Source: Pomacea canaliculata (taxonomy: Eukaryota > Mollusca > Gastropoda > Architaenioglossa > Ampullariidae). Taken from it: DNA of 64,000 bases. Below the pieces are notes generated by a model. It made no database searches. It was given only the letters and a program-made list of their open reading frames with translations, and was not told the DNA's origin. This document shows positions 137 to 45,149 of this stretch, one piece after another; within the stretch, counting starts at the first letter, position 1; each line of letters begins with the position of its first letter. The stretch lies in the NCBI RefSeq assembly GCF_003073045.1, contig NC_037600.1:15144352-15208351 (forward strand), given 5' to 3'. Made by a program: the position numbers and the translations under genes.

Positions 137-690
137 AGAGATGACTGGCTTAAAGATCAACAGAAAAAAAAAGACCGAAATGATGAGAATCAACAACTAG
201 CAGGAACTCCCAATCCAACTTCAAGGAGACAGCATCCTAGAAACAGACCGCTTTACGTATCTGGAGAGCATTGTCAACAAGGATGGTGGAACGGATGATA
301 AAATCAAAAGCCGCATCAACAAGGCCAGGCATGCTTTCAACAGCCTATGCTCCATCTGGAACTTCCAAGTATTATCCTTCAGCAGTAAGACCCGCATCTT
401 CAACACCCATGTGAAGGCAGTCCTACTGTATGGTTCTGAAACCTGGAGAGTGACAAACACCATCAACAACAAGCTCCAGACCTTTACCAACCGATGCCTA
501 CGCCATGTTCTGGGAATAAGATGGCCTGTAAAGGTCTCCAACAGCTGCCTGTGGAAAAAAACCAACCAGAATGCCACTAGCCAAGACATCAAAAAGCGCA
601 AATGGGGCTGTATAGGACACACCCTGCGCAAACCAGCTGACACCATGGCTAGGCAGGCACTACCTTCACTCTCCATTTCTGTGACTACAG
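137..690 (+). mobile_element. LINE 3' fragment (RTE-like reverse transcriptase C-terminus)
   Basis: The end of a non-LTR retrotransposon ORF2 can be read. An upstream part contains TGLKINRKKTEMM and the stretch FTYLESIVNKDGG, followed by IKSRINKARHAFNSL, YGSETW, LQTFTNRCLRHVLGIRWP and WGCIGHTLRKPADTMARQAL. These are the hallmarks of the post-polymerase region of invertebrate endonuclease-reverse transcriptase LINEs. At least one in-frame stop lies in the upstream half, and the catalytic palm, the endonuclease and the start of the ORF are absent, so this is a 5'-truncated dead copy. Similarity fades after about 690 without an obvious poly-A tail. Assignment to the RTE group rests on remembered motif style, not on a search. 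Confidence 0.85.
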
Positions 691-3685
691 CTGAAGTCAA
701 ACGTCTCCATTGTTCATCGTGTCTACAGCTAAACAGTACATTTCAGTGTCAGTGAGTCATATTTCGTCTGTGTGAATTCTTTTATTGCCAGACTACTTCC
801 TTAAAAATCTGAGTAAAGTCTGGAATCAATTTTCATTATATCCACCATACCTATTGCACATTCAACCCACCCCCATTTTTTTTAGGTTTGTATGGTTGGA
901 ATTAAGTTAAATTTTCCCATGTACTTGAATAGAGTCAAGTGTGTGATTTAATCGATTTTAGATTGTTGACAAAGCGACTAATGATGGCATCGACCGGTGA
1001 CCAACAATACACGGGGGGGCGGACAGCCTTGTCTCACTAACTAAAAGGCGAACCCCCAGTGCTCCTAAGTTTTATTGGTTAAGATAAAGACATAGTTTGT
1101 GGTAGTCGGTCCGATACCCATATGAAGCAGTGTACTCCATCCAAACGACTTTCAGATCACAGGACTATTTTTACCTGGTAACAGTACAAGGGAGCAAACT
1201 TTGGATTTCGCGCTAAACGGTGGCGGTGGCGGTGGCGTCCCTTAGTCTTCTTTGCCACTTGTCGGCTGCTAGCGGGGTGGGGAACCCTTCATTTACATGT
1301 ATATTTTTTATTAGCGTTACCCTGAAAGGCTAGCTCAGATCCGAACTTAAAGTAAACAGCAATGAATCATTTATCCTTCCCAAAGCAATAAAATAAATTG
1401 ATTATACAGAATAAATGCAACCCTGTCAAAATGTCTATATGCATCTAAACATGTGTCTGTGTGTGCGAAGTTTAACTTAGCATCCTGTCAGAAAAACCAT
1501 TCAATTCTTAAAACTCATGTTATTCAAATTGCATGAAGAAGTGTGTTTGTGCTTCATTACCCTTTAACCTCCGATCACCACTGTAGTTAATTTGGAATGG
1601 AGAGATCGTTTTGTCAGTTTGTCTGTCCCACGTACACACACACACAAACGTTGTTTACTCTTCAGAAGATGACCAGAACCAAGGTGAGACGTCAGACAGC
1701 TCACCATCCTTGAAGCATTTCGTCAGCAGGAAACTAAGGTCGCTCCTTGGAAACTATGACCAGTTTCCAGTGTCTACAAATGCTCTTCGTGTCTTTTTAA
1801 GGCAGTTTCTCGGTGTCTATGTGTGATCAATTTCTCGTTTTCTTTTTATTTTTTCCTTCTTATGATAAGCATTTTAGAAAATCCTGTCATTCCTCCCTCT
1901 CTCTCTCAAATATAGTTATTAACCGTCAAACACTATTATTTCAATCAATTTTATCTCATTATCCCACGGACCATATACAGTCTTATGTAAGGTCTGTGGC
2001 GATAAATTTCACATGTATTTTTTTTAATTCGGTCGGGATGGGGGGGTAGGGAACTGGTATGAAGGCTTACACAGTAATTCAGCTTTTGCTGCAGTCACAT
2101 TTTCGGCTGCTTCATGATACAGTTCATTTAAAATTGCAGAGCGCTGAAATTTATACACATTGAAATGTAATAATCAGTATAATATAGGTGAATATATGCC
2201 GTTCCGTGTGTAAAAAAAAACCCAACAAAACCAACACATCTCAGGGGGATACTCAGATGTGTTCTCAATAATAATGAGCAAAATATTGTTCTGTTTGACA
2301 CGTCTTAAGTGGCGCCTTATCATCAAAATGTATGTGATCAGAGTGCCGATGACAACAAGAACTGCTAAGATAAGCACTGCTCTTTGCTAGAAGTGGATTG
2401 CGAAGAAGAATCTCATACTTTTTGAAAATTCAATTTTTAAATTTTACACCGAATATTGAAATAATACTTCCTTCGCGCAATTAAAGTTTGGACAATACAT
2501 CAACAGCAAGATTAATTATAGGGGTAAATACAGGTGGTGGTTGTGGTCGACTGCTGATGAGGGCGGTGATGGAGCAGGAGAACCACGTCATCAAAGCACT
2601 CACGTGACCACTTCTAGTGTCAAACGGAAAGATGCCAGAGCCTCTTAGAATGCGTGGCGAGATGAGAGAGAGGAAGTCTCCAGCTCGCCACAAGGCGCAT
2701 GCGCTCCACCGGGCAGCATGAGGATGTCATCCACTTCAAAGTTAGCTTGACCTGTGACCTTTTCAGGGGGGAGGGTATTGACTGTCTTTTGTTAGTTTCC
2801 CACGTGTTCCTTTGAGCTTAAAGTTTTGACAGGAGAATTCATGTTAAAAACGTTTTAGAAAATTTTCCCCGCCCCTCACAAAATTATTTATTGGTAGGGT
2901 GGAGGTGGAAGTTGTCAGTTTATACTTGTAGATCATTCCATTAAAAAAAAAAAAAAGCAATCGTATTGAAGGAAAAAAATAATTAAGAGAAAACATCAAA
3001 AACTAACGGTCTCTTGAATCACTTATTTTTATCACCTAACACTTGATAATTACTAAAATATGTGATCAAACTTTTCAAAAAAAAATCATGGCTATTATTT
3101 CTAAGTTGTTTCTCAAAAGTTAAAACAAATGAACCACGTATTAATCTAGGAATGTTGTTTTCAATGATTGTGCGTTTGTGCACGTGAACTAGTTCTTGCA
3201 CGAATAATGCTGCGGGGTGGAAAATGGAGTTAAACCGGAACTTGTCTCTGATATTCGTAAAACGTGCCTCTAGAGGAGAATCTAGGTTCTATTAATCGCG
3301 AATACTGGCACTTTCAGTCATCGGCACTTAGAATTACTTACGATTACGGCCTTTGTTTATGATTTTGACACAAATATTGAACAACGAAAGAAAAAAGTTT
3401 ACAGAAATGTCAAAAATAATCAAATATTTAACAAAGCATCTAAAGCACATCAGTTATTCTCGACTTCAAAGATTGGTATTGACACCACGTGTCCCCTTCC
3501 TTCTTCTCAAATATTCTTTCTCAGGAAGAGTTCTTTTCCACGTATTCCAATTTTTTTTTAAAGCCTACAGTCTTCAGAAACAAACGAAAACAAGCCAAGC
3601 AATAACTGTCACATGTCGTCAGATTATCACTGAGTACTCAGGGCTCGAGCATCGTCGCCCAGTCTTCCTCAATCTTGTTTGTCAA
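691..3685. other. Intergenic stretch and probable 3' UTR of the minus-strand cysteine-rich gene
   Basis: No gene with codon structure and splice sites was found here. The right end presumably holds the 3' UTR of the cysteine-rich gene whose stop is at 3686-3688. A minus-strand AATAAA (plus TTTATT at 2887-2892) is a possible but distant polyadenylation signal. The stretch also holds a segment related to 16762-16975 and a possible orphan membrane-helix reading frame near 2240-2390, both described separately. Confidence 0.4.
1755..1968 (+). repeat. Copy A of a two-copy segment (other copy at 16762-16975)
   Basis: The run GTCTTTTTAAGGCAGTTT followed by CTCGGTGTCT, then an AT-rich stretch, then GTTATTAACCGTCAAA and TTTTATCTCATTA, recurs in the same order and spacing at about 16818-16975. 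By eye, identity is about 70-75% over roughly 160 bp. Weaker similarity seems to extend left over the first coding exon of the secreted Gly-rich gene. It is either a dispersed repeat or a decayed copy of that gene's first exon and intron start. Confidence 0.6.
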
Positions 3686-16654: not shown

Positions 16655-16690
16655 TATAAAACAAAGAAATTATTTCTCTTCGCCTTGTCA
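16655..16690 (+). promoter_or_regulatory. TATA box and initiator of the secreted Gly-rich gene
   Basis: TATAAA at 16655-16660 is followed about 32 bases later by TTGTCAGTC, a good match to the TCAGT initiator. The predicted 5' UTR then runs about 90 bases to the ATG at 16779. A focused TATA/Inr promoter fits a strongly tissue-specific secretory gene. Confidence 0.55.
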
Positions 16691-16761
16691 GTCGCTTGGG
16701 CGGTGTGTGGTTGTCGTCTGCCTGACTGGAGGACACAAGGAAGAGAAGTACTTTGAGTGAT

Positions 16762-16975
16762 ACAGGCAGGCCTGGAAAATGAAGATCCTTGTGTCTGTGA
16801 GTACAAGTGATCTTCTTGTCTTTTTAAAGCAGTTTTTCGGTGTCTGTTCATTTGTTTGTTTATTATAATCATAATTTTAATGCAGCTATGAAAATCCCGT
16901 CGTTCATCTTTTTTTCTAATAGAGTTATTAACCTTCAAAATCATTATTTTTGGTTCGTTTTATCTCATTAACTAT
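16762..16975 (+). repeat. Copy B of a two-copy segment (other copy at 1755-1968)
   Basis: Matching blocks are GTCTTTTTAAAGCAGTTTTT with CGGTGTCT, then GTTATTAACCTTCAAA and TTTTATCTCATTA. They cover the start of intron 1 of the secreted Gly-rich gene and perhaps its first coding exon. Confidence 0.6.
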
Positions 16976-19900
16976 AATTGTAAACAATAATAAATGATGA
17001 TTACGGGCAACTAACAACAATGATGTTGTCTACTCGATTAATTGAGGGCTAGAATTCTGACATTTTTGAATTATGACATCTTGTCCTTTCCAAAAACAGT
17101 TTACAATTTTAAATATAGATTTTTTAGTCTTCTCTCTCCTTCTACCTCTCATTGCACCATATAACACCCTTCCATTAACGTACCCTAACTTACCATGCTT
17201 CTCCTGACTAGTTAATCTCAGTTAATCATAGTGTCAGAACCTCCTCTGATTATTTCCACACCTTTCCCCCCTATCTAAATTAAAACCGATTCAATTTGAG
17301 ATTGCGCAAAAGGCAGTCATTTTGAATTGCTCAGAAAATCAGGAAACCCAGTTTTACAACCTCACTCGCGACATGACACTCAAGACGGGACGGCGACCTG
17401 TTCGTGTCTTGATGGGGGAAACGTGCCTTTAAACTTTTCATAATTTATTCTACCTGTCTAGTCTGTCTCCTTATGAGACTGCTTATGTTTATGTATGCAT
17501 CTGATTTCACTTTTTGTTGCGTGAATCTGAGCTGAAAGTGTTCTTTGTTTGTCAATACAGTTTTGTCTTGTTTCGCTGTTACATGACTTTGTGAAGAATG
17601 TGTAGTGCGTTGTGATTGGTTTTTAATAGCACCATACATCTTTTTGCTATAAAAATCATTTTCAACTCGTGTTAACTGCCTCATTATTTTCAGTCAGTTA
17701 TTCTTGATGTAAAAATTAAATTATTTTCTTTCCAAATAATTAATCTTTCAATTTATCTGTTATCCCTAATCTTTAATTTTCAGGGTTTATTTTTTTGGAA
17801 GATCGGCCGTTTGAGAACATTTCATTTTTGGGTGTAAATAATATTAAAAAAACAAGTACGACCAATTTAGTTTTAATGCGTATTGAGACTGGTTGGGCCA
17901 GTTTCCGTGAGAGTGATGGCCTCCTGATGAATAAAAGTAATTATAGAAGAAGTTGCAAACCGTATTTCTTCACAAGGAAACGTACTCACCTGCGTGTTTT
18001 CTGCTTATTTCTACTCTCTCTCGTTCTCTCTCTCTCACACACACTATGCCTGGCACGCAGGTTTACTGTCACGCTGGACTTCACGAGATCTTAGAAAACT
18101 CACAAAAATGATTTTCATTTGTCGGTGCATGATGTGACTTGCCAGGTATAGGACCAGGTATTCTTTTTATTTTATATCCTCTATTTCCTATACAATGTAC
18201 ATTAGTCATTCGCTGACTTTGTCTTCCACTTGCTGGATCGACCCTCCTATACCCCTATTGTACTTTTTTGTTTGTGACCACTCACGGGTACTCATTTCGT
18301 TGACCAATGCCTGGACTTCATTCCAGTGGCTGTAAACACAATCCTTCTTATTACGAGTTCCTTGTATTCTAGTTGTCTGCCTGGAACAAGACTGACAAAA
18401 AAATAAATAAATAAATAAAAAAATAAAATAAAATAAAAAATAATACAAGGTCCTTTTTCCACTCATCATGATGGAGGAGAGGTATTTTAAGGTGTGTTGT
18501 GACATAACACGCTGCTGCTTGTTACAGGTGTGCTGTGACATAACACATTTTTGGTATCTGATATGCGCAGATGTTGCTATGGTATAACATACTTCTGCTG
18601 TTGCAGACACTGATGTTTTCGATGGTCATACAGACAACATGGAGCCACACAACACCGCCACCATCACCAGGTGCAATAGTTATTCAGCTTTATTAATATT
18701 AATTATGGTAAACATCCCTCTGAAACCTCATCCCTTAAAAATGTTGATTACAAATTTCCTTTTAAAGAAAATAATAACATTGATAAATTTTGAGCCGATT
18801 TCACCACTAGTTCTATTTGTCTATATTATATATACTTTTCTATTTCCTTTTGTTTGTATTTGATGAGATCGGTCTTTAAACAATAACACATGCATTTTTC
18901 AGGCGGTAGCGCTGGTTTCGCGGACGCGATGGCGACTGGACATGCATCAGGGGGAGGGACAGGAGCAGTACCAGACCCAGCAGCAGCAACAGCAGCAGGT
19001 CAGCTGTGCAGGAGACCTCCGTCATTACGATTCCTTTCGCAGTTACTTCCTCCTTCTCATCACTGTTAACTCTTGCTTTCTAACACGTAAAAAAAAAAGT
19101 TATAATAATAAATCCCATTTTCCCAAGTACGGAACCGGTTGACAAACTCACACACTCAGGACAAAGTTTGTCCAGTGCCTATAGCAATATTTACTATAGA
19201 CAAATCGTATTAAGGTAGACTTTCTTCCCTTCTTAATAATAATAATAATAATGATGATGATGATGATGATGTGTGTGCTTGTATCGCGCATCAAGATGGG
19301 TCGCACTCTCTGCGCAGATCAGTAATGATAATTGAACACTAGATAATAGTGAACTGTGAGATACGTATAGACACACTGAAGAACATAAAAGATGAAGTAC
19401 AAGAGAAGAATGTAAAGCAATGGATGAAGGTATGAAGTGATGGAGGGACTGTAAACAGTGTAAATATGAAGTCGTTACATGATGGTTAGCGTGACAGACA
19501 ATATTGCAAAAGGAGTTCAGGAGAGTAATTTAGGGATAGTACTTTGTAAACATATATGTTTACAGGGAAAGTATGAATGAGTGGCGAATATGAAGTGGAA
19601 GAGAGTTTCACTGCTTAACAGCACAGAGAGCGGACAACATTGTCCGTATGTGACTGTCTTTGCGGGAGGGAGGATAGAATGCCGGAGTCTGATGAGGAGC
19701 GAAGGTTTCGGGCAGTAGTGTGGACAGATAGTACTAGTCTATTCTAGCTTTAATTGGTAGCTAATAAAGAGAATGAAGAGGTGGTGTGGCATGTTCAGAT
19801 ATGCGAGTCGAGCAAACGAGACGAGCATCTGAGTTCTGAACTTTCTGTGAAATGAGATATTATAGCTTCATGACATCTGATTACTGCCCTATAAAATGTT

Positions 19901-22900
19901 TCTTTTGCTGTAAATTCTTTTCTCATAGATATTTGCTTCATTGACCCGAGAATATGCGAAACTCTCAGATTGAGGGCACCTGCTTCAAAGGGTGAGAAAA
20001 ATGGACAAAAAAGAAAAAAAAAAATGCTGAACCACGCGCCTTGGAGCAAAAAAAAAAAAAAAAAAAAAGCACATACTTTCCAAATTATTCGCGAGGTTTT
20101 GCTTTTTATCTTCTGGCTTGGGTGCCATCAAATGTATGGAGGTAGTCGCTGTAGCTCTGAAATATGTAAGCGGCTAGAAATTTAACGCTGAAAAGCCTGA
20201 GGAGGGAAAGATGTTTTCGTTATTGTAGTTTAGACACAAGCTGTCATTATGGCTTTTTATGCTGGTAGACATTGCATGCATTAGAATACGGCGGGAAGAT
20301 GAAATCAGCAATGTTTTATGTTCATTTGTATTGTCCACGTGACTTACAAACTTGTAGCTTATAACTTTGTAGGCACTGTCATGAGAGTGAAAACTCAAAA
20401 GGGGTCCAACGAAAGTCTCCATTCTCAACCGAACTTTTTTTTTAAAAGATTGTTGGGTGCATTTCGGATGTTGGGTAAAGCCTAGAGCAAGATAGTATTT
20501 CCCCGCATTTCAACGCTACATGTTAGTTTACAGTGTCAGAATGCTTTTACATATACATATCAAAACCGTTGGGAAAAAATATGGTGGAGTTTTGAATTTC
20601 TTTCTCAAACAATGGAAAGTGTAGTGCTGTCTGTGAGAAAGAGATTAAAAGCCTTGGAAAGTCAAATTTTACGACACCACATGTTTAGAGATTTTAAAGC
20701 TACCCATGCTAAGACTGTCATGTTTTTATTCTCTCCTCTCCATGCTGCTGACGGCAATAACAGGTATTATTCTTACACAATAAATTTTCACAAAGAACAG
20801 AGACAAATATAGCACAGTGAGGTCAAGGGTGACAGCTCTGGGCTGAATAAGCACGGTAAGTGACGGATCGAGGGGGTGGAGCAACAATAATTTAAAAATA
20901 AGGAGGTCTGCTTCCGGTTTGAATCATGCTTTCACACCAGCAAAGCCCTCCGCCTTTCTCGAAAAGAAACCGAGAACTAGTGAACACTAGTCATCTGAAA
21001 ATTATAAAAGTTTGAGTTAACAAAATCGTGCGACATCTCTAGCCCTAACCCCCAACCTAACCTTAAAACCCTTCTTTCCTTGATTTTATTTAATTTTCTC
21101 AATCGAGTATCCGTTACAGAATGTGTAACTTCCACCTGGCTACAAAGTCCACCTTCTAAAATAAAGTTGAGGCCATGTCTCTGCTCATAAGACTATTTTA
21201 TTATATATATAATATGTTATTTTATATAAAGCCCACATTTATTGTCTTGACCTCTATGCCTCTTACTGTTAAATATTTCGAATGCTGATCGCAAGTAAAA
21301 TTTATCCAATACAAACCGCCTTAATTAATATAACCAACTTTTATTGTCTGTATTACTTGTTGTTAACGTGCCTACATTAAGTAGGTTGTGTAACGAATGT
21401 GGCACACACCTAGAGGGGGCAGAATCATCTCTCATGTTTGTCACTAACGAATCTCGGGGTCATTATCTACATATAAATTTATCTTTGCTTAGTCAGTTGG
21501 ACAGTGAAGCCATCGGACAACCTGTTCTGTTAGTCGTCTGGGCATTCCGTCTAACTTGTTTCTGATTGACTCGTCAGGTCATCTTGTAAGTTCTGGAAGA
21601 ATTTATTCGACTTTCAGAACCTACAATAGATTTCTTCTGGCCTTAAGCAAAACATTGCGGTTTGTGTAGCACGTGTGTAAACACAGTACTGTACAGTAAG
21701 TATTGCAGATTTACCTTCACCGCATTTTTGTAGGTTGAATTTTTTTTTCTCAAATTTTAAAACCATTTATTTACACAAAGTTGTTGCTGTGATTTTATTC
21801 TTTTCTTATTATTTATTACTTTTCATTGTTCCTGGCCTGGGCCAATCAAATCGGTTGCTCAAAAAAACAGGCGAGTATACAAACGCTCCGTTTAGCTAAC
21901 TAACGAACAGCCGTGCGTGTGTGTGTTTATATACGTGTGTATAGGTGTGTGTGTACGTGTGTGTGTACGTGTGTGTGTATGCGTGTGTGTACGTGTGTGT
22001 ATGTGTGTGTGTGTGCGTGCTAGTGATGTTGAAGGGACAAACTGCAAAATGTTTAGAATTTTGTGGGAGCGTGTGCGTGCGATCGTCTCCCAGGCATGCA
22101 CGCGCGGGTTTTGTTTCGACTGCAAGCTTCTTCGTGCTTTTGGTGTCGGCTTGGGACTTTTGCGGATTCCAGATAACACCAGCAAGCTATGCTTCAACTA
22201 TTAATTAGAATGTTCATTGATTTCTCTCACCTCCCGTGTACACCTCTGATGTTGTTCTCCTCCTGTAATGATTCAGTCATCACTTGCTGCAGTCCTGGTG
22301 CTCAGGTTCTCCTGCGCAATACTAAGTTTTCATAAGCAGTTCAAGCCCAGAGATAAATAGTTTTACAACAAAGAGCCTTCTGTTCACAACATTTTTTAAA
22401 CAAGACTTTGTGCGTCATCATGACAGGAAACAGGAAAGGTGAAACATGAGCAGGAAAGAAGCTCTATATCTACGTCCATATATAAACACAAATGCTTCAG
22501 CTTACTTTCGTAAGCAGCCAGTGTGTACCCAGAATGTGAATGAAGAAAGTGCTTAGTACAATCCATTTACCAAATTTTGAATTCGTCTACAACCTATCTA
22601 GAGTAGTTCGTTTACAATATGTGTATTAATAGGATTTGTCTGCGTTGTGTTTCTGACACAAAGGGATGGGACAGGCTTGAATACTGACACCTAACAGTAA
22701 ACATATGATATACCGAGAGACAGAGGGAGTTAAGGGATGGATAAATACAAAATGAAATGTGAGCGGCTTTCACTCTGCGGTTACAGTTTTACATACCTGC
22801 TTAACACTTCTGACTTTCTATGGCGCTTATTGGGATGTTAACGAACTAGCAATTAGTTCCACTAAAACTCATTAAGCTGCATGAAAAATAAATGTGGTGG

Positions 22901-25900
22901 TCAACAAAAAAAGTTATTGTAATTAAGACATTCATTATTTTTTTTAGAGATTTTTAAATTTCCATTAATTCACTGATCTTAGTTTTAATACTCTTTTGTG
23001 CTAGCTTGTTATACAATGACGATCAAAGTATATCAATATAAATTTCCAATACACTTATTTATTCATTTACTAATTCATTTATTTATTCATTTGTTATCTC
23101 CAATATATTGATAAAAACGAAACCCATAGTCACTCTGACACATGTTATGTGTGCGCCTTTTGGAGGCACCTCTCTCTTTGGCTACATTAAGATTGGTCAA
23201 AAAAATGGTTAACTTGACATTCCTAGTGAAGTGAGAAGATAGAAAATACATTTTTTTCTGAACGGGTAAAAGGCGCGTGTTTGAAAGTGTCTGCTGTTCG
23301 TAATATAAGAAAGTTGGTTTTTTCTCATTAGCCATTACTGGAACTGCACACGGCCCAGGTAAATGAACTCATTTTTTTGAAGTTGGTATCGTCGAAGTAC
23401 TGCTTTTGGATTTTGTTGTTAAATTAAGTCAGATGATAGCAGTTGTTTACTAGTTCATTAATGTAAATTCAGCTTAAAAATGCTGTCAGAAGAATTTGAT
23501 ATTATCTTGATAATGGATTTAGAATCAGTGGGTAGAACTTTGAAGTGATGAACGAGTTTGAGAAGATGCTCAGTGTGTGTTTTTGTTATTAATTTTATTA
23601 ATCACTTTTATCCAAAATTTATGTTAAGCCGAAATATATTTTAGTTGAAGAAAACCAGCAAACAGATTTTAAATGTTTCTATAGACTGTACGTGTTCAGT
23701 GCAATGGCGCCGGCTTTCAGCCTCCCTGTGATGTCAGCATCTATTCGACTTTAGTGCTATGTGGACCTTCTGGTCGGAATTCACGTCGAGCTTGTGACCC
23801 CTAGACTAGAATTCCAGACTGGGATTTGTTACTTGACCGCATGATCCGTCTAGTTATTTATCCCTACTCCCTCCTCTTTCACAGGAACCACCACGGCCAT
23901 ACCACCCATGATCACGCACACCTTCAACTTTGGATACCAGCCCCCACAGACCCCACCGCCACCGCACGGCCCCTCCTTGCCTTTCCTTGACTTTTCAGCC
24001 CCGATTCCGGCTCCGGCCCCTACCCCAGCCCCCGTTCCCGCGCCGTCCGGCTCGTACCTGCAGCAGCTGATTTCGTCCATGCCGCGCTTCAGCGTCGCCG
24101 ACGTGCCGTCGGTTTTGGATCGCGTGCGGCAGAGGAAGCAGGAGTTGTCCTTACTGGGCAAGCCCATGACAGAGCAGGACGTCGGGCAGGTGCTGCTGGA
24201 CTTCCAGACGCAGCGGTTCGCCACCAGCGCCGTCAGCAGCGGCGGCGGCGGTACCTACGGGGGACAAACGTTCGGCCAGTACCCCAGCCCCAGCCCCAAC
24301 TACGGCCAAGCCCAACCCACTTCCGGGTACGGCCTAGCTCAGCCCGCTCCGGGATACGATCCGTCTGGCTACGGCACCAACTCAGTTATGAACAGTCCCT
24401 TCAGTCCCGGCAGCAGTTTCTCTTCGGGCAGCACCTACAGTTCTGGCAGTGCCTCCAGCGGTGGAGGTGGAAGTGGAAGTGGTTATTCCCTTCTTGGGGC
24501 CCCTGGAGGTCAGACCTCTGCGTACGGGAGCAGCTATCCGTCATCTAGCAATCCTGTGGCAGGTGCTCCGAGTTTCGGTTCGGGTGCGACCAGTGGGTCT
24601 CAACAGGGGGGCACGTCGTACACCCCACCCGACTGGCAGATGCACGCCTTAAAGGAGGCCGTGCTTAGCCGCCCGAACCCCAACTACCGGCCAGAGATGG
24701 GGGGAATGTTGAACACAGGGGGTAGCGGCTCCATGGCTCCTGCCCCTACTCCGTCCAAGTACACGCCGCAGCAGCAGCAGCAGCAGAACAACATGCTATA
24801 TCAGCAACAACAGTCGGCCAACCAACCCAGCTTCCAGATGGCGAGTAGGGGAGGGACAGGATTTACGCCGCAGTTCCAGCAGTTCAGAGCCCCGACACGG
24901 ACACAAACGCCAACGCAAGCGCAACTCAACCTACTGCAAGGGTCGCGACAGCCCAGCGCCGGCACGATGTCCAACCCGCTGGCAGGCTTGCTGCAGCAGC
25001 TGGGGCTCGGCGGCGCAGCAGGAGGCATGCAGAACCAGCAACAGCCTGCCGCAGCCAACGACCCCATCAGCGCCATGCTCAACCAGATCATGTCGCCCAA
25101 CCCCACATTGTCTGCCTCCAGTCCCTTAGCACTGCTGGGAGGTACTACTTACGTCTGTCGGACAGCACACTGTCCGTGTCGTCTGTTTTGTCCGACCAGC
25201 GTGACGTCTGTTGACGTCCACGCTGCTGTTGCAGCGAAGATTACTGTTTGTCTTGAAGCAACGCTCACTCTGCTTTTTTCTTCTTTTTTTTGTTGTTGTT
25301 TTTATTTGTGTTGTTGTCTGGTTGCTGGGACTGCATTCCTAACGTCTCATTGTTTCCAATATTTTTCTTCTGACGTCACAGCTATGTCCATGATGTCATG
25401 TGTTTGCTCCTGACGTCATGGCTGTGTTCATTTGTGACATCACTATTTTTTATTTTCTGGCAGTCAGCCAAGGCTTCTTATTGCGTCTACTAGTTTTCAC
25501 GCTTAGCTAAAAACATTTGTGGCTAAGTGAGATTTGAACACATCTTCTTTAAGCTTTGATGAAATGTGGAGAGTTGTGGGGAGGTAGATATAAGTTGAAC
25601 ACAATTACCCACACGTATAAACGCTTAGATGTCATTGTATTGAAAATCTTGTGTCAATATTGTTATCAGAAGCTCGACATTGTAGTCTTCATTTTATTAA
25701 AATACAGCATTTGTCTTGGCGTCTGAGACAAAGTTATCTTTGCAGGAGGTGGCGCTGGAACAGGGTCTGGCACCGGTGGTCCTGACCTCGGAATCTTCAA
25801 TTTACTAGGCGGATCCGGTGGAGGTAAAAGAAGAGTTTAAATGCTTCAGGCATAGTAAATTTTTAAAAAATCTATAATAATGCATCTATTCTTCTAAATA

Positions 25901-27637
25901 ATGTTTTTCTACTGTAACCCTAGCATCGTTTTATCAGAGCAGGTTTCTAGATATATATAGAGGTAAGTAAGTAAATAGATTTATTTTTTTGTGTGTCTCG
26001 ACAGCTTCGAATTCTCTGCTCGGGGGATCTCCAAGCATGCAGATGCCAGGTTCTTTTGGTGCCAACGGTGGTTTCGGTGGAGGTGGCCTTGGCGATATGA
26101 GTACTTTTACCTCCGGTTCCCTACTGAACACTTTACGAAACGGCCAGAGAGGCGGGATGGGAGGTTCGCCATTCGGAGGGAATGGGCCGTTGGCATCATT
26201 AGGAATGGGCATGCCTCAGCCGCAACGTGAGAAAAACATTCATTTACTACGCTTTTTAATATCATTTAGCCTGTGTTTGCTTACGTGCAAGCCTCTTTGT
26301 GACCGTCTGTTTCAGAACATCACGAGTATCCACACGACAGTATTAAAACCAAAACCTTTATCAAGAGAAATTTTTCAATGTGACATCGTACTTCTCAATC
26401 AGAATAATGCAGTTTCTTGTTCTTGCAAGGAAAAGAGGTCCTCTAAGACAACGACTTCTTCCGTGCAGAGTGAGCAGGGTGTCGTGGAATTTACTGTTTT
26501 GTACGATGCATATCCGACTGCGTTGGTCAGAATAGTTGGCGACAACAACCCTTTTGACATCAATGACCTACTATGATTACAAGCTCCACGTTTTTCTTTC
26601 CCTTCAGTTTTTATTCTTTTGTGATTTTCAATATTGACTAGACGGAAACTAAATGAAATTTCCTTTTTCAGAAAATCCTATGATGCAAATGATGCTACCA
26701 ATGATGTAAGTCGTGTTTATTTAATTAACTCTTTTTAAGTCAAATGTTGAGAATTTAGAAGAAACTTGCTGTTTTCATAGTAAGCCGTTCACATTACGGC
26801 TGCTCACACTGGCTTCTTTTGTGTTGATAGATAGGAAGTTTATGTGAGAGAAAGAAAGAGAGCGCGCGAGCTGATGAATCTGCGGAACTAGCCATCATTT
26901 TACGTTTAAAAAATCGGCGCTTGGCAATACGCATGGAGAATGTATATTACAATGGCAAACAAACGGGATTTTTCTCTTATAACAATCTTTTAAATTAAAA
27001 AGATTTTGACAACATTTTCTTGTGAACTTGCATATTTGATGTTAATTGCTCCTTGTTTCATCGGTGACCTATTTGTCTTTTGGACTTGAGACAATTTGAC
27101 ATCGGTCTTGGGACGAAATGGACATAGCTGGGATGAACTGACTTTTGCCTCGAGGTAAAATGGTCTTGGGGCGAAATGACCGGTGACCCGACCAACATGC
27201 CTGTTTGTTACAGGATGATGCGGGGAGGAGGAGGAGAAAGTGCCATGATGGCCTGGGCCATGTCGCAGATGTTTGGTGGCGGTGGTGGAGGCATGGGAGG
27301 CATGGGAGGCATGGGCGGCATGGGAGGCATGGGTGGCATGGGAGGCAATCTCATGTCCAACCCACTTGTATTAATGGCAATCATGCAAGGTTTGCATGCG
27401 TACTTTCAAGACTTATAGTGTCACGTCTAATGCACGCACACATCTGAGAAAAAAGCAGCACGCATTCATACATATTGATTAATTAATATTTCAGTTTGAG
27501 ATAGTTTTCACATTTGCTGCTCAATTGTTTTTCTGGAGAAATCCATAATACTCGTTTCCAGAATGTTTCATGATTCTTATTTAAAATAATTTATTATTGC
27601 TGTATACTTGTATCTTTCAGATGGTTTGGGAGTATAA
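16779..27637 (+). CDS. Secreted cysteine-free Gly/Ser/Gln/Met-rich protein (silk- or shell-matrix-like)
   Basis: There are nine coding exons: 16779-16796, 18607-18670, 18903-18998, 23885-25141, 25746-25823, 26005-26226, 26672-26705, 27214-27389 and 27621-27637. Intron phases are 0, 1, 1, 1, 1, 1, 2, 1 and all agree, giving 653 residues ending in DGLGV. A signal peptide is formed only after splicing (MKILVS joined to [13 protein letters not shown]). It is followed by a Gly/Ala segment, a Pro/Ala stretch and one ordinary-looking segment at about residues 117-172 (from [18 protein letters not shown] to LLDFQTQRF). Long Tyr-Gly-Pro-Ser-Gln low-complexity sequence, recurring LLGG motifs and a final (GGM)n block complete the protein. 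The spliced protein contains no cysteine. I recognise no family. Composition resembles extracellular structural proteins such as silks, byssal, egg-capsule or shell framework proteins. The donors of exons 2 and 3 (GTGCAA, GTCAGC) are weak, so the 5' part is less certain than exons 4-9. Confidence 0.8.
18491..18606. repeat. Three degenerate copies of a 36-43 bp unit upstream of an exon
   Basis: The core GTGTGTTGTGACATAACAC at 18492 recurs as GTGTGCTGTGACATAACAC at 18528, and more weakly as ATGTTGCTATGGTATAACAT at 18571. The last copy runs into the acceptor of the second coding exon at 18607. A different AAATAAATA-rich run lies just upstream. Confidence 0.6.
19228..19330 (-). repeat. SINE/LINE-like 3' tail with (ATT)n
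   Basis: Read on the minus strand, GCGCAGAGAGTGCGACCC, then GCGCGATACAAGC, then CATCAT and ATTATT repeats follow the common invertebrate tail plan of an 'aagcgc...gcgctatata' hairpin-like pair followed by (ATT)n. Related tails occur at 38775-38840, 38948-39040 and perhaps 53607-53625. The body of the element, if any, is not recognisable. Confidence 0.4.
21913..22020. repeat. (TG)n microsatellite with CG interruptions
   Basis: Over 100 bp of GTGTGT are broken by TACGTG and TGCGTG units. Open frames on both strands across it are compositional artefacts. Confidence 0.95.
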
Positions 27638-27768: not shown

Positions 27769-27774
27769 AATAAA
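27769..27774 (+). terminator. Polyadenylation signal of the secreted Gly-rich gene
   Basis: AATAAA lies 132 bases after the stop codon at 27635-27637, at a normal distance, so the transcript should end near 27,790. Confidence 0.75.
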
Positions 27775-30739: not shown

Positions 30740-33700
30740 TTATTGTGTGGGAAGATTTTCTATAGGTGTAGCAAATTTGAAGTCAGCAGGGAACAGGTCA
30801 TGTGCACGAGGATACATGGACTTGTATGACTGTCGAATAGTAACTTCTGCCACACCAGCAATCTCACCAATTTCTGCAACAGCAAAAAAATTCATCCAGA
30901 GACTGTAACCTATCTCAAGGTTGACTTTTCATGTTTCTCTTGTGCAAGTAAAAATTTTTTGTTCCATTTTTCTGATTGCAGAAAGGATATTTGATTCTCT
31001 CTATAGGCTCAGATTTTATTATTCTTGCTTCAAGCTTTAAAAAAAAAAATAGTAAAGACTACACAATGATTTCAAATTAGTAATAATAAAAATTAGTTAA
31101 AAAATAAAGATGTCCTTTTTCCCTAACAGTCTGAGATAGGGAGCCCTCTTTGTTTTACTATCATCAACGTGTGGATCTATATGTTCATCTGGGTTTCTCT
31201 TCATGCAGTGACTTTCTACTTCTTTCAGTTTTTAATGGACAAATAGCATCAAAATTTCCAATGGTCTTCACCATTCTGTCACTTCCTTTCTAAACCACTT
31301 GTTTCCATAATGCAATATGCTCATGATTAAACTTTGCTTTGACTTCTCTGTTTTGGATGCCTCGAAGGCAATCCCCACCACCACCACTACCATCATCCAC
31401 CATCAGTCACTATAATCATAAACAATCCACACATCATCATTATGTGAAGACAATGGATGTCTCAATCTTTCTAATAGTTGCTATACTTTCCTGTGATTGC
31501 TTTAGGACAGGAAAGACAAGCACAGAATTATGGTGGAGTGAACACGGGCAGAAAACAAATCTTACCTCTCTGAGTTTTTTTGTCCTCTGAAGCCTGTGAT
31601 GCCATATAGATAGCAGCAGCTGCCACAGAGATTGGACTGCGACTGCACACAAAAATAAGCAAGTTCAGAAGAGAATTACAGCCTGAGATACCATATAGAT
31701 AGCAGCAGCTATCACAGAGACAGAACTGTGAATATAGACAAAAACAAATCAAGCTCAGAAAAGCACTAAAGGGCGAATAAAAACAAGATTCTAAAAATCT
31801 AACTGTAAAAGATTTTTGGCAAGTTTGTTGTGCTTGTTTTATGTCTATAATTATCACTTAAAAAAACAAAACCATAACTGTGCCTTGCATGAAAAAATAA
31901 ATCAGCATTATCTTCCCTGTTTTACAGTTTTACTTGAGAAACAAATGTTCTCATGGATTTTTTTGTAAGTTTAACTTATAAGAGCTTTAAGTTCCACTGT
32001 AGTATAAACCACAAATAAGTACCTAATCAAATAGTACATCACATGTTTCCTGGATACATATAAAAATTATTCCTAAAAAAGAAATTCCAATAAAGTCTTA
32101 CCCTGGGACAAGATCAAGCTCAACAGCTCTTCGTGCAATATGAGTTGCAGCTTTCTGTACAGCAGTTGGAAGTCCAAGGTTTGAACAAAATCGAGACTGA
32201 AAAAGAGAATAGTTTTATTCATTTATTTTTTTTAACAGATCCCAGATAAATTTAATAAGATCAATGCAAAATCCTAACAGCTACATTACCTCATGTAAGG
32301 ATTAACACACTACTGAATTTTCTAGCCTTTTTTTATGTTTTGTAAATTTCAAACATTAGAGAGAGAGTTAGGGGGTGGAGATTGGTATTTTACACCAAAC
32401 CAGCAACTAAGGCTATATCGCAGCAAAGCAGCTGGTCCTGTAAACAGGTGCCACATGCAAAGAGAAAAAAACATGGACAGTGAGAAAGTGAGTGCATACT
32501 TTCATACTTGTGTCTCTCCATGTGTGTGCATGAATATGTCACTTGTCTTTAAGACATTACCATGACAATTATCACTTACCATGAAATCTCCTGTTGTAAT
32601 GACTTCTACGTTAGTTTCCAAATTCTTAAGAATAAGTTTAAAAACTCGTCCAATCTCTTTCTTGGCAACCCTGGATACTGCACAAATTTCTGCAGAACGA
32701 AAACAAAATTAAGTATTAGAGTTACCAGTTCTCTAGCTGAGAATATTCTCTCATGCACATGCAGTGTGCATGCTGTACAGTCATTACCAACTAAGCACAA
32801 ACAGTAAGCAAGACTCACCCTTAAAAGTACGTGGAACACCCTCCTGCCGACAAGCAATGTACATGCAGGCTGAAGCAATGGCATCGTTACTGCGGCCTTT
32901 CAAGGCCTTGCCTTCATGTACTTGCTTAAAAAGTGTGCTAGCACGGTCCTATTAACACACAAATATAATACAAATAAGTGATGCACGCAAACGTACCAGA
33001 TCCCATGCACACATGTACACACGCTTTTATACATTTCCTTTCAATTTACTACAAAGTCAAACTGCATTGCATCCCTTATAGCTCAGATTTATATAAATTA
33101 TGTTTCTAGCTCCTAAATGCCATATCAAGCCTTAATTTTGTGATTTTCACTTCTCAGGAAAATCCCTCACTGAACTGTATTTTAAAATGATAAGGTAGCA
33201 TAACAATATTTTAATTAATAGTCTATAGACTGCCAAAGAAAAAAAGTAAACTCAAGAGTTTAGCTGCATGGAATGATAACAATAACAAAAATATGGGTGC
33301 TGAAGAAATTGCAAATCAAAACTTCTGTACATCAGGATACAAAAATACCTAAGTGAAACTTACAGCGATCATTTTGGGCAACTGAAGTCTGTCTGCCATT
33401 TGCTTAATCTCATGAAAGGCATTGAGTAGTGCTCTGTCAGAGCTGTTCAGCTGTTCACAAAATGACAATAAGATACTTCAACAATATGAGTACTTGCTAG
33501 ATCATACAAAAATAAGAAAGGGTCTGATAACTTAACATAACAGTCTTATGAATGAAAAGGATTTGTGTTGCTTTTTTGCGATTGAAAATGCCAGACATAT
33601 GGTTCACATCTGTCTGCCATAAAACCAATATCATTTGGTGTTGATATTACAAATTTTTGTATTCAGTGGACTTGGTTACTTCATGAAGGAAGAAATATGT

Positions 33701-42015: not shown

Positions 42016-43639
42016 CTATACATAGACATGTATAACTTTCTGGATTCTTGTTCTGCAGAGAGGACATATGTGTCGATCTAATTGCTGTGAGTGAACAATT
42101 GCATTGGCACAAACTATGCACAAACACATGTGGCGGCATGGCAGTATCAGCACAGATTTGTTGGCATCCTGACACACCACACACTTTCGCTTATCACGTT
42201 CACGCTCTATCTCTCGTTCAAAGTCGTCTGAAGTCATGCTTTTGACAAGCCGAGAAGGTGTAGAAGAACGGCTCCGAAGACTGTAGCGCTCTTGCTCTGT
42301 TGGAAGTTGCACTTCAATTTCAGGATCACTTTCTCCTGATGAGAAAGATTGGGAATACAAGGAGACATCAGAATGTTCATCGTCAGTATCATTATCACTT
42401 AGGGTCAATTCCGTATGCACTTCGGATGCTTCTCCATCAGAATCTGTATGATTTTCACCACTAGTGTGCGAATCAGCATCATTGTCATCATCAGCATCAC
42501 TTTCAAACTCTCTGTCAAGAGGAATCTGCTCAGCTCGATTTGTGCGCTGTGATCTTGGGAAACCACTTTGAAAAATTAATCTTTTGAAATGCTGCATGGA
42601 AGCATACCTTGTAAAATAAATATACAAGATTCCTATGATTCCGGCACCCACAAATGTTTCCAGACTGCAACTTTTGAAAGCACTAGAAGTCCACAAAGCA
42701 AGCCCTCCCCAAATTCCACTCAGCCAGCCCATGAAGTACCTGCACAACCATTTAAAAGAATATAATTATTTCCCATTTCATGCTCACAAGTTCAAGGTTA
42801 TAAGATGATAAACCCAACTGATCTTAAGCAGGTTTCTGTGTTTAACAAAGGTATATGCTGTGATAATAAATGTATATGTATATTTATATTGCACACATAA
42901 AAATATTTATACACATACTTGAATATGGAATGGGTCAACATAGGATTAATACTCTTTTAATAATGAGGCTATCCAGCAAAGCTATTTTTTCTGTACTATC
43001 ACTATTGTCACTTGCTCCATCATAAGTAAATGTACACATAAAAGCAAGAGCAAAAGAAACTGAGGTTACCTACCTTGGAAGATGTGACAATGTTGCAGGT
43101 ATGAAAGCAAGTCCTTCCCATACAGCCAACACACAAGTACTTGCAACAATGCCAACTGTTGTAAACATGCTGGAAACACCTGTCACAAGGCTGTGTGCCA
43201 GCACAGCAGTATACTCAGACATGGATTCACAAGTCTCCATGACATCTGCAGCTGACTGATGTACTGCCTTAATTGTAAGTAATCCTCCATTCCACAGCCC
43301 AATAAATAATGCTTCAATGCCAGTAAGAAGCAAGCACAACACTTTATAAAGAAGTACTATAATATGCCACAGAAGAAGAAACAATGCAGAAATGCAGTTA
43401 CATATTTCTGCCAAAAAGTCGAAAACATACACAAATATGATGTATAATCCACGAAAAATGAAGTCTAGAACTGTTACTACAACAGAAAAAGTGTCACACA
43501 GAGTAGAATATAATGTGGTGACAATTGCATAATTTAGATGCAATATGTAGCTAAACCATTCTTTAACAGTTGTGACAGTAAACACTACAGTCGCACAAGC
43601 ACTGTAGAATGTGTCACTTGCCGTTGCTAAGATCTCCAT
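42016..43639 (-). CDS. RNF26: E3 ubiquitin-protein ligase RNF26
   Basis: Two coding exons, 43639-43074 and 42739-42016 (phase 2 junction), give 429 residues; human RNF26 has 433. The N-terminal half is a chain of hydrophobic membrane helices (for example VVVTVLDFIFRGLYIIFVYV and ISALFLLLWHIIVLLYKVL). The middle is a very acidic Ser/Asp/Glu linker, and the C-terminus is a C3HC4 RING with C375, C378, C390, H392, C396, C399, C414 and C417, ending in the family's aromatic tail (VIHVYV). In vertebrates RNF26 is an ER-membrane ligase that organises perinuclear endosomes and modulates STING signalling; that role is known of the family and only inferred here. The start ATG (AAAATGG context) was chosen over an upstream non-ATG extension. 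It sits head-to-head with a paralogue. Confidence 0.88.
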
Positions 43640-44288
43640 TTTATCTGATCGATTTTGATCAATATACAGTATCAACTATTTTGAGCATTCCAACGTTACC
43701 AGCATTTCCAATGCCAGTATAAGAAGCATGAAACAGGCACTCACACGTGATTTCTTTTTTTTTTCATCTCGAACACGGAACTGAATACTCAATGCAAACT
43801 TGGTGGTCCCAAACAAAGTTTTGTAAATAAACACTCGACACTAGTTTCCACGACTGCACGGATTAATCAATTAACACTTGTTTGATCCCCTACACACACA
43901 CGGGAATCAAATATAGCAATAGACAGACTTGTTGTCCCCATTAAATCTACGTGACTGTCATAAACTTTACAAAGTCTAGGATTAATATATATATACAAAC
44001 GATTTCCCTAGGATTTTTAAAACGCAACTCCACAGACTTTCATGATCTCTTGTGAGCACTTCCCAACGACCACAGTACAAGCGGAAGTGACCTACATAGG
44101 AATACGATGTTTTCGTTTCAAGAACTAAAGAGTGCTGATAGGGAATTGCCGTTTTTATTGATAACTAGACGTTGGCCATGCGTCGTTGAAGGAGGAAAAA
44201 AAATAAATAACGGCCATCTATCACATCAGCTCAATGACGCATAAAAACCAGTTCTTTGCGAGACCATATTTTGTTTAACAGGTCCAGC
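43640..44288. promoter_or_regulatory. Bidirectional promoter between RNF26 and its paralogue
   Basis: Only 649 bases separate the two divergent start codons. The interval holds an ETS-type site GCGGAAGTGA at 44081-44090 and no TATA box in a useful position, as is common for shared housekeeping promoters. Both genes' 5' UTRs must lie in it. Just before the plus-strand ATG, TTGTTTAACAG could be a splice acceptor, so a small untranslated exon is possible. Confidence 0.6.
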
Positions 44289-45149
44289 ATGTTAGTGACA
44301 CTCGGCCTTGCTCTTCTGTTGTTTACTTGTGTCGGAGTTGCGTCTGTTGCTGTGAAGGCTTACTCGAGCCTGCCACCAACGCTAACAAATATTCTTCTTC
44401 ATTTAATTGACTTTCTCGGCGCATTTATTCAAACATTTTTCCGACTGATTTACATCGTCCTTCTGTTTGTGTACAGCGTTACTACCTATTTCATGGGGAC
44501 CGCTTTAAATGTAGTACCAACGGTGTATAAAGTTCTCACCACTCTTCTTGGATTCTTTCTGTGGTTAACAGTTCACTTCATTCGAGGCTTGCTTGGTCTT
44601 GAAGATAAAGCAGTCAATACTATAAGCTGGTTAATAGCAACGTGTGTTGTATTTCTTTATATAGACAAAAATTACCAGCGCCTTGGTGGAGGTGGTGTGT
44701 TTAGTGGACAAATTAATGCCGAGGTTCTGAACGACACCGACAACAATGAAGAGAATGGTACGGCGGAAGAAATTAACCCAAATGGGCATGAAGATCAGCA
44801 GCTGGAAACAGAGAACAGAGAAAACGAAAACGAGGAAAATGCACTGGAAGAGGCAGATAGAAATCGTGCAAATAATGACAATGTGCAGAATGTACAGCGT
44901 GAGTTGAACAGAGAAAGAGTACAGTTGCCAGTAACGCATGTGACTCGGGTTGTTGGTGAAGAGTCTAGTGATGAAGAACTTGACCCAACAATATGTTCCA
45001 TTTGCTATATTAGAAGGAGGAGTGCTGCTTTGTTTCCTTGTGGTCATACACAGCTTTGTAAAGAGTGTGCAAGGATTATAACTGATACTCAAAGACCTTG
45101 CCCAATATGTCAAACAGCAGTTCAAGAATTTCGTCGAGTATATGTTTAG
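44289..45149 (+). CDS. RNF26-like membrane RING-finger protein
   Basis: A single coding exon of 286 residues. I chose the ATG at 44289, because the longer frame has only a non-ATG start. About four membrane segments fill residues 1-127 (MLVTLGLALLLFTCVGVASV, then regions near 33-63, 76-99 and 111-127). A Glu/Asn-rich acidic linker follows at 145-235. A C3HC4 RING uses C236, C239, C251, H253, C257, C260, C271 and C274. The C-terminus is FRRVYV, sharing the terminal VYV with the RNF26 copy next door. Layout and tail make it a divergent paralogue or a family sister of RNF26, probably a membrane E3 ligase with the RING in the cytosol. It is shorter in its membrane part and lacks the intron of its neighbour. 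The function is inferred. Confidence 0.8.
   Translation: MLVTLGLALLLFTCVGVASVAVKAYSSLPPTLTNILLHLIDFLGAFIQTFFRLIYIVLLFVYSVTTYFMGTALNVVPTVYKVLTTLLGFFLWLTVHFIRGLLGLEDKAVNTISWLIATCVVFLYIDKNYQRLGGGGVFSGQINAEVLNDTDNNEENGTAEEINPNGHEDQQLETENRENENEENALEEADRNRANNDNVQNVQRELNRERVQLPVTHVTRVVGEESSDEELDPTICSICYIRRRSAALFPCGHTQLCKECARIITDTQRPCPICQTAVQEFRRVYV

Follow-up and report, generated by a model that had tools for sequence, protein, structure and literature searches.

This locus raises the question of which role can be given to a predicted secreted protein that contains no cysteine and is dominated by Pro/Ala, Ser, Gln, Gly and Met. The window analysed, a stretch of 64 000 nucleotides from the apple snail Pomacea canaliculata, carries the gene on its forward strand, and the original prediction had listed an extracellular fibre, an adhesive, an egg-capsule or a shell framework protein as its possible product. 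By the reading that we hold to be a little better than evenly probable, this cysteine-free, lysine-poor structural protein is part of an extracellular organic framework, one that would belong to the shell, its periostracum or some other cuticle, for instance the operculum.

The gene model as predicted from the sequence is well supported, and it comprises the following features in window coordinates.

16655..16660, + strand, TATA box TATAAA, by consensus only
16688..16692, + strand, Inr-like TCAGT, putative transcription start, read in the sequence
16779, + strand, start codon opening exon 1, read from the sequence
16779..16796, + strand, exon 1, encoding MKILVS, phase 0 at its end
18607..18670, + strand, exon 2, remainder of the signal peptide and a Thr/Pro stretch, phase 1 at its end
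18903..18998, + strand, exon 3, rich in Ala/Gly, phase 1 at its end
23332..23358, + strand, probable exon 4, a 27-base micro-exon (ITGTAHGP), phase 1-1
23885..25141, + strand, exon 5, 1257 bases, phase 1 at its end
24046..24240, + strand, predicted three-helix patch, residues 123-187 (AlphaFold2, single sequence)
25746..25823, + strand, exon 6, Gly in 13 of 26 residues, phase 1 at its end
26005..26226, + strand, exon 7, Gly/Ser/Leu, phase 1 at its end
26672..26705, + strand, exon 8, 34 bases (an 11-residue peptide), phase 2 at its end
27214..27389, + strand, exon 9, Gly/Met tail with GGM repeat, phase 1 at its end
27621..27637, + strand, exon 10, DGLGV and the TAA stop
27769..27774, + strand, AATAAA polyadenylation signal, 132 bases 3′ of the stop

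All predicted introns are GT-AG, and the joined exons keep a single frame open from 16779 to 27637; the splice phases can be read in the sequence, as had been stated. The earlier count of nine in-phase exons probably has to be raised to ten, with the micro-exon at 23332-23358 having been overlooked in the intron of 4.9 kb that separates exon 3 from exon 5. Among the frame-keeping, stop-free AG..GT intervals of 15-199 bases in this intron, 23332-23358 was the sole pair with both acceptor and donor scores reaching its own values, by splice-site weights that were not trained here. The 653-residue length given originally is exact for nine exons, and becomes 662 residues with probable exon 4; cysteine is absent from both versions. 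Frame +1 of the joined exons contains 21 stops and 34 cysteines, frame +2 contains 7 stops and 14 cysteines, and none of 2000 shuffles of exon 5 left any forward frame open across its 1257 bases. Beyond the exon-5 donor the same frame stays open for a further 90 residues or so, among which are 14 cysteines, and therefore the cysteine-free stretch stops at the splice site. The TATA/Inr promoter proposed earlier was recovered, the Inr-like motif lying slightly far (35 bases) from the TATA box, and no ATG occurs between that motif and 16779.

The predicted protein of approximately 64 kDa is near-neutral (pI about 7.2), with 36 charged residues (K+R+D+E) in 643. Per 662 residues it has 13 D, 5 E, 16 Tyr and 5 Lys, one of the lysines inside the signal peptide, and no N-glycosylation sequon was found in it. 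Sites for cleavage by trypsin are few. As foreseen, the zero-cysteine chain is preceded by a predicted signal peptide: no other part of the chain is as hydrophobic as the signal-like 19-mer with which it starts (hydropathy 1.09), the signal call being made by hydropathy. After residue 25 no 19-residue Kyte-Doolittle mean exceeds 1.07, a low value for a membrane-spanning segment, and by this hydropathy criterion no transmembrane span was evident after signal removal. Glycine reaches at least 25% in 135 of the 564 windows of 80 residues (highest 37.5%), and methionine makes up 28.75% of its richest 80-residue window. Residues 588-662 are 28% Met and 32% Gly, with a six-fold GGM run confined to residues 624-643 and, at the DNA level, a 9-base unit repeated in tandem in 6.8 copies within exon 9 (27287-27347). 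Tyrosine adjoins glycine in 8 of 16 cases, which was equalled by 779 of 5000 whole-chain and 214 of 5000 local shuffles; cross-linking through tyrosine is weakly supported because shuffles often reach this adjacency.

Exon 5 encodes Pro/Ala, helical, Ser/Gly/Tyr and Gln blocks, and is predicted to be mostly disordered except for the helical patch at residues 123-187. In AlphaFold2 models of the 365-residue exon-5 run, computed from the single sequence with no alignment, pLDDT was below 50 in 249 residues, and the confident helices fell within the initial 62, where the first six 10-residue blocks averaged 70-97. When residues 123-187 were modelled alone in the same manner, the mean pLDDT was 81.0. 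Foldseek comparison of the patch with the PDB returned 26 matches, none of them at E ≤0.001.

No Pfam family was matched at E ≤1, in a range where the HMMER filters lose most matches above about 0.1. To that extent the original statement that no named family has this layout was borne out; the layout itself, however, belongs to a described kind, that of silk-like structural proteins (PMC4944945) and Met-rich insoluble shell proteins (PMC7591529). In the SilkSlider screen for silk-like proteins, a signal peptide, no transmembrane domain and a mature-protein window of 80 residues with a Gly content of 25% or more are sought (PMC4944945); the snail protein has such a Gly window, lacks a membrane span as judged by hydropathy, and starts in a signal-peptide-like manner. 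The literature covered included PMC7591529, PMC6003135, PMC3374290, PMC6007483, PMC6129957, PMC10593848, PMC4944945 and PMC13394694. The gene was not named in titles or abstract openings among the matches listed, and no paper was found that combined at least four of the topics operculum, Pomacea, glycine, fibrous protein and amino acid composition.

Closest by composition in this literature were the abalone Glycine Rich Boundary Protein (Has-GRBP) and the insoluble, Met-rich proteins of the pearl-oyster shell. Has-GRBP is described as mantle-expressed, and its H. laevigata counterpart as one of the major proteins of nacre, in which G, A, Q and M abound and 64.6% is predicted to be disordered. 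Like the predicted snail protein, GRBP is secreted and has much Gly, Ala, Gln and Met; its short repeats are GMGA and QQQV or QQQA. Compared by description, the two differ in that GRBP carries GMGA and the snail protein GGM repeats. High Gly and Met are also shared with the Lottia gigantea shell proteins Lotgi1|239170 and Lotgi1|239174 (16-20% G, 12-18% M, Gln or Ala rich), although these two measure 145 and 186 residues and have pI values of 9.9 and 11.2. In Pinctada fucata, Met-rich regions are reported to be shared by the insoluble proteins of nacre, prism and ligament, including NU-5 and LMP, and in one case, a ligament protein of about 50 kDa, the region is C-terminal (PMC7591529). A Met-rich region of this type is present in the snail protein. 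Knockdown of NU-5 disturbed the nacre. NU-5 is of about 180 kDa with Glu-rich regions, whereas the snail protein is nearly without acidic residues; the P. fucata ligament proteins likewise have no acidic block (PMC7591529). The silk-like features and these analogues support the earlier claim that the protein is secreted, extracellular and structural. Among the roles proposed for it, the shell framework has the best analogues, and the adhesive role is the weakest because lysine is very low and the number of Tyr-Gly neighbours does not clearly exceed chance expectation.

Other readings of the locus have to be weighed against these likenesses. An elastomer of abductin or ligament type, whose Gly-Met tail would give rubber-like recoil to the operculum, periostracum or radular membrane, would agree with the six-fold GGM run, the Gly/Met composition of residues 588-662, and the C-terminal Met-rich region and missing acidic block among P. 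fucata ligament proteins. In abductin, the scallop hinge rubber, Gly-Met repeats fill most of the chain; in the snail protein they are limited to about the last 75 of 662 residues, and snails have no hinge ligament, so that we regard this reading as unlikely. That the protein belongs to an egg capsule or coat and originates in the albumen or capsule gland seems to us rather improbable. Proteins that lack any conserved domain do occur in P. canaliculata capsules, and 12 proteins are common to capsule and shell, but the capsule proteins named are chitin-related, sulphatase, calcium-binding and immune proteins, and the words glycine and methionine are absent from the main text of that source, the protein lists of which are placed in supplements (PMC13394694). 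A role in adhesion or mucus, in the foot or pedal gland, is still less probable: such a protein would be secreted and of low complexity, with several Tyr-Gly pairs as in residues 187-330, but Lys and Tyr are scarce, and both cysteine and N-glycosylation sequons are missing.

Two further explanations concern the gene model itself. Residues 187-330 resemble the low-complexity domains of SYGQ-type nuclear proteins, and exon 1 encodes just six residues, as might be expected if the signal peptide were a mis-called first exon of an intracellular prion-like protein rich in Ser/Tyr/Gly/Gln. We consider this highly improbable, given that no RNA-binding or DNA-binding domain was found with Pfam, that charged residues are few, and that TATA box, Inr-like motif and ATG stand in order 5′ of the exon-1 donor. 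The least credible explanation is that unrelated open stretches were joined by chance: the model is a prediction from the sequence and needs exons of 18, 27, 34 and 17 bases, but its ten in-phase blocks are related in composition and free of cysteine, the cysteine-rich read-through begins directly past the exon-5 donor, and the polyadenylation signal is properly placed.

Under the preferred reading, the organic framework outside the cell is most likely that of shell or periostracum, the shell having the best analogues; the few acidic residues, unlike those of many mineral-binding shell proteins, count against a shell role. An epithelial cell, most likely of the mantle, would release the chain as a soluble disordered polymer, and chains might associate via the helical patch. 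Thereafter the Gln-rich and Gly/Met-rich blocks would come together as an insoluble, disulphide-free network, perhaps fixed through oxidation of tyrosine or methionine, and this network would be a component of the framework of shell, periostracum or other cuticle, e.g. the operculum. Low-complexity framework proteins are missed by homology searches, and nacre has received more study than the gastropod shells that lack it. With a gene model that is complete and includes a patch able to fold, in situ hybridisation, proteomics of the shell and assembly tests on recombinant protein have a definite target in an invasive model snail, the shell proteome of which was reportedly published by Liu H. et al. 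in 2023.

By the searches made in the 440,159,624 bases of the genome, the gene appears to be single-copy. The whole protein gave seven matches from eight candidates, six lying on its own exons and one (L008, E 0.40) rejected as a paralogue, being a glycine run that sits in an unrelated frame. The Met block gave two matches from two candidates, i.e. itself and a site at E 0.26 that was rejected for its three stops, and the 96-residue piece with the helical patch matched only itself at E ≤0.001 (one match from two candidates). A DNA pattern of three GGM units returned ten matches (six forward, four reverse) at four distinct loci, with three reverse matches for the reversed-pattern control: the gene itself, a locus on C5 that presumably corresponds to an Hsp60 tail, and two on C2, at 27.94 Mb and 23.30 Mb, neither of which had been surfaced by the protein-level searches. 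The locus at 27.94 Mb is a small signal-bearing Gly/Met ORF containing cysteines. At 23.30 Mb, C2:23296024-23303050 (L030, L040) is a probable second secreted Gly/Met/Ala/Gln gene, with an Ala/Pro/Gln-rich body, a QQQQQQPNPM..MLPMM block, GGM/GMP repeats and a signal-like segment in an upstream ORF; it differs in a tail dominated by GGMPGM repeats.

Alignment of residues 561-662 with the C2 tail scored 128 (reached by 9 of 500 shuffles), with the C2 body 49 (70 of 500), and with the small C2 ORF 101 (0 of 500), and the full protein scored 93 against the C2 body (3 of 500). In BLASTP, the 23.30 Mb gene was not significant (E 0.98 for the body and 4.0 for the tail at best), and no E-value below 0.78 was obtained for the C2 tail, body or small ORF. 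Homology is not claimed because low-complexity repeats of the same type can yield such scores. In spider silk, folded terminal domains hold chains together and trigger the soluble-to-solid step. That the three-helix patch could be a new, internal assembly module of this kind, a folded island in a small snail-specific secreted Gly/Met set including the C2 gene, is a doubtful extension with a small chance of being correct.

No local cluster of like genes was seen in 264 kb (1877 stop-to-stop ORFs of at least 50 amino acids), by an ORF-based screen that would miss small exons. Four ORFs of at least 60 amino acids reached 25% Gly or more over a window of 60 residues, namely exons 5, 7 and 9 and the exon-5 antisense. 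The looser screen (G, S, P, A, Q, M, T and N making up 60%) returned nine in the same 264 kb, i.e. exons 3, 5 and 9, the exon-9 antisense, and five elsewhere, two of which are overlapping frames of a single poly-Q/poly-N run.

The gene predicted for a secreted, cysteine-free, Gly/Met-rich protein is well supported, and its region on the forward strand is delimited as follows:

16655, forward strand: TATA box, 5′ limit of the gene region
16779, forward strand: start codon, read in the sequence
27637, forward strand: stop codon, read in the sequence
27769, forward strand: AATAAA, 3′ limit of the gene region

Ten predicted exons of 18, 64, 96, 27, 1257, 78, 222, 34, 176 and 17 bases share a single frame across GT-AG introns, with end phases of 0 (exon 1), 1 (exons 2–7), 2 (exon 8) and 1 (exon 9), and encode 662 residues. 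The original prediction had spotted the gene correctly and modelled it nearly correctly: its start, stop, frame and 653 residues were reproduced, while the probable 27-base exon 4 had been omitted. Because leaving out exon 4 yields exactly 653 residues, the earlier nine-exon model is most likely the present one minus this micro-exon. With generic splice-score weights, the exon 4 donor (9.4) ranked top of nine and its acceptor (6.0) second of nine, and no alternative exon of equal score was found in the host intron. The GC percentage of exon 4 was 59, against ca. 37–39 in the surrounding region. These splice scores support, but do not prove, that the micro-exon belongs to the gene.

Exon 5 is open across all of its 1257 bases, when any forward frame remained open in 0 of 2000 shuffles. 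The proposed lack of cysteine held for all 662 residues, also with exon 4 added, and the other two forward frames of the joined exons contained 34 and 14 cysteines. Beyond its donor, the exon 5 frame extends by ca. 90 residues that include 14 cysteines, with none in the spliced frame; the cysteine-free property therefore tracks the splice site.

The signal-like start of the chain is likely a signal peptide, and assuming a cut after residue 19, the mature chain has a computed pI of ca. 7.2 and a mass of ca. 63.8 kDa. The protein is organised in compositional blocks:

Residues 20–120: Pro/Ala/Thr block (24% P, 18% A)
Residues 123–187: predicted helical patch, where 13 of the mature protein's 36 charged residues lie
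Residues 187–330: Ser/Gly/Tyr block (23% S, 22% G, 8% Y)
Residues 351–487: Gln block (20% Q)
Residues 488–587: Gly block (35% G)
Residues 588–662: Gly/Met block (32% G, 28% M)

The main interest of the gene lies in the predicted helical patch, set inside a cysteine-free chain that is predicted to be largely disordered elsewhere. AlphaFold2 without an alignment folded residues 123–187 into three helices (mean pLDDT 81), and these persisted in the modelling of a 365-residue stretch, whose first six blocks of 10 residues had mean values between 70 and 97. Within this stretch, 249 of the 365 residues had pLDDT below 50, and four more short helices were predicted with block means of 41 to 65. A Pfam search returned no family at E-values up to 1, a PDB sequence search gave one match (E-value 0.53), and a PDB fold search with the predicted patch gave no significant match. 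Neither an N-glycosylation sequon nor an RGD motif was present in the protein, and dibasic sites numbered one.

In earlier work, silk-like structural proteins were screened for by signal peptide, its removal, absence of a membrane domain, and 25% Gly in an 80-residue window (PMC4944945). The Gly threshold was reached in 135 of 564 windows of the mature protein, and no membrane span was evident in the mature chain. As reported, the screen yielded two abalone proteins, each expressed in nacre-forming mantle, and the less repetitive of these, Glycine Rich Boundary Protein (Has-GRBP), carries short GMGA and QQQV repeats (PMC4944945). Its Haliotis laevigata counterpart is described as a major protein of nacre with high contents of Gly, Ala, Gln and Met, and limpet shell proteins are reported with 12–18% Met and 16–20% Gly. 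In pearl oyster, Met-rich regions are reported as common to insoluble nacre, prism and ligament proteins; a scaffold role is proposed by the authors, and knockdown of NU-5 disturbs nacre (PMC7591529). Three glycine-rich secreted candidates of Lymnaea are described as expressed in mantle zone 3, adjoining the peroxidase zone, with tyrosine cross-linking proposed. Since these are reported to lack matches in the other shell proteomes compared there, absence of recognisable relatives is usual for this kind of protein.

On the basis of the screen outcome and these molluscan analogues, we infer an extracellular framework protein, of shell or periostracum in the first place and of other cuticles in the second. 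The structural role suggested by the original prediction is supported by the Gly content, the lack of an evident membrane span and the shell analogues. Direct mineral binding is argued against by the low acidity of the chain, in which acidic residues are few. Tyrosine cross-linking is possible; Tyr-Gly pairing (8 of 16) was near chance, as 779 of 5000 shuffles of the whole chain attained it, and 214 of 5000 when shuffling was local.

The window occupies 15.14–15.21 Mb of contig C11 in an assembly (G000) of 440,159,624 bases and 24 contigs. As judged by sequence search, the gene is single-copy in this assembly. A DNA pattern of three consecutive GGM units hit three places besides the gene, one of which resembles the tail of Hsp60. 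The other two, Gly/Met-rich candidates on contig C2, were:

C2:27939542 (locus L032): small Gly/Met ORF with a signal-like start MKCLLVFALLCAVSYG, its GGM repeats including cysteines
C2:23296024–23303050 (loci L030 and L040): second probable gene for a secreted protein rich in Ala, Gln, Gly and Met, with GGM and GMP repeats forming the tail

The latter gene has an Ala/Pro/Gln-rich body and a QQQQQQPNPMSMMSNMLPMMGM block ahead of the GGM and GMP repeats. An ORF farther upstream, which starts with a signal-like segment followed by Met-rich sequence, may be its 5′ part. In the present assembly the frame of the C2 gene shifts at a CAG run. Block order is alike in the C2 gene and the window gene, but BLASTP was not significant. 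The alignment score of the full 662-residue chain against the C2 gene body was reached by 3 of 500 shuffles and that of its C-terminus against the C2 tail by 9 of 500, whereas the C-terminus against the body scored at chance level, with 70 of 500 shuffles reaching it. A small set of secreted Gly/Met proteins is thus probably encoded in this genome, whether or not by common descent. Within 100 kb on each side, no ORF of at least 60 amino acids reached the glycine measure outside the gene, save the antisense of exon 5.

At locus L012 of contig C11, 67.5–69.2 kb upstream of window base 1 and ca. 85 kb upstream of the gene, two ORF pieces matched the von Willebrand A domain (PF00092, E-values 8.4e-06 and 0.007). 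Such domains are also found in mollusc shell matrix proteins, and any tie of L012 to the gene is hypothetical. Other features in the window were:

201–752, forward strand: ORF matching DUF6451 (E-value 8.4e-12), probably a retroelement fragment
31591–31760: tandem repeat of an 89-base unit, 1.9 copies, 80% matches
42019–42765, reverse strand: RING ORF (zf-C3HC4_3, E-value 6.8e-13)
43073–43675, reverse strand: hydrophobic-looking ORF
44238–45146, forward strand, opposite to the other RING ORF: RING ORF of 303 amino acids (E-value 2.7e-12)
57920–62042, reverse strand: exons assigned to an adenylate kinase gene, one ORF matching ADK (E-value 2.3e-07) and another weakly SKI (E-value 0.032)

The RING-finger ORFs in 42019–45146 resemble RNF26-type ligases, and the adenylate kinase gene is perhaps AK9-like.
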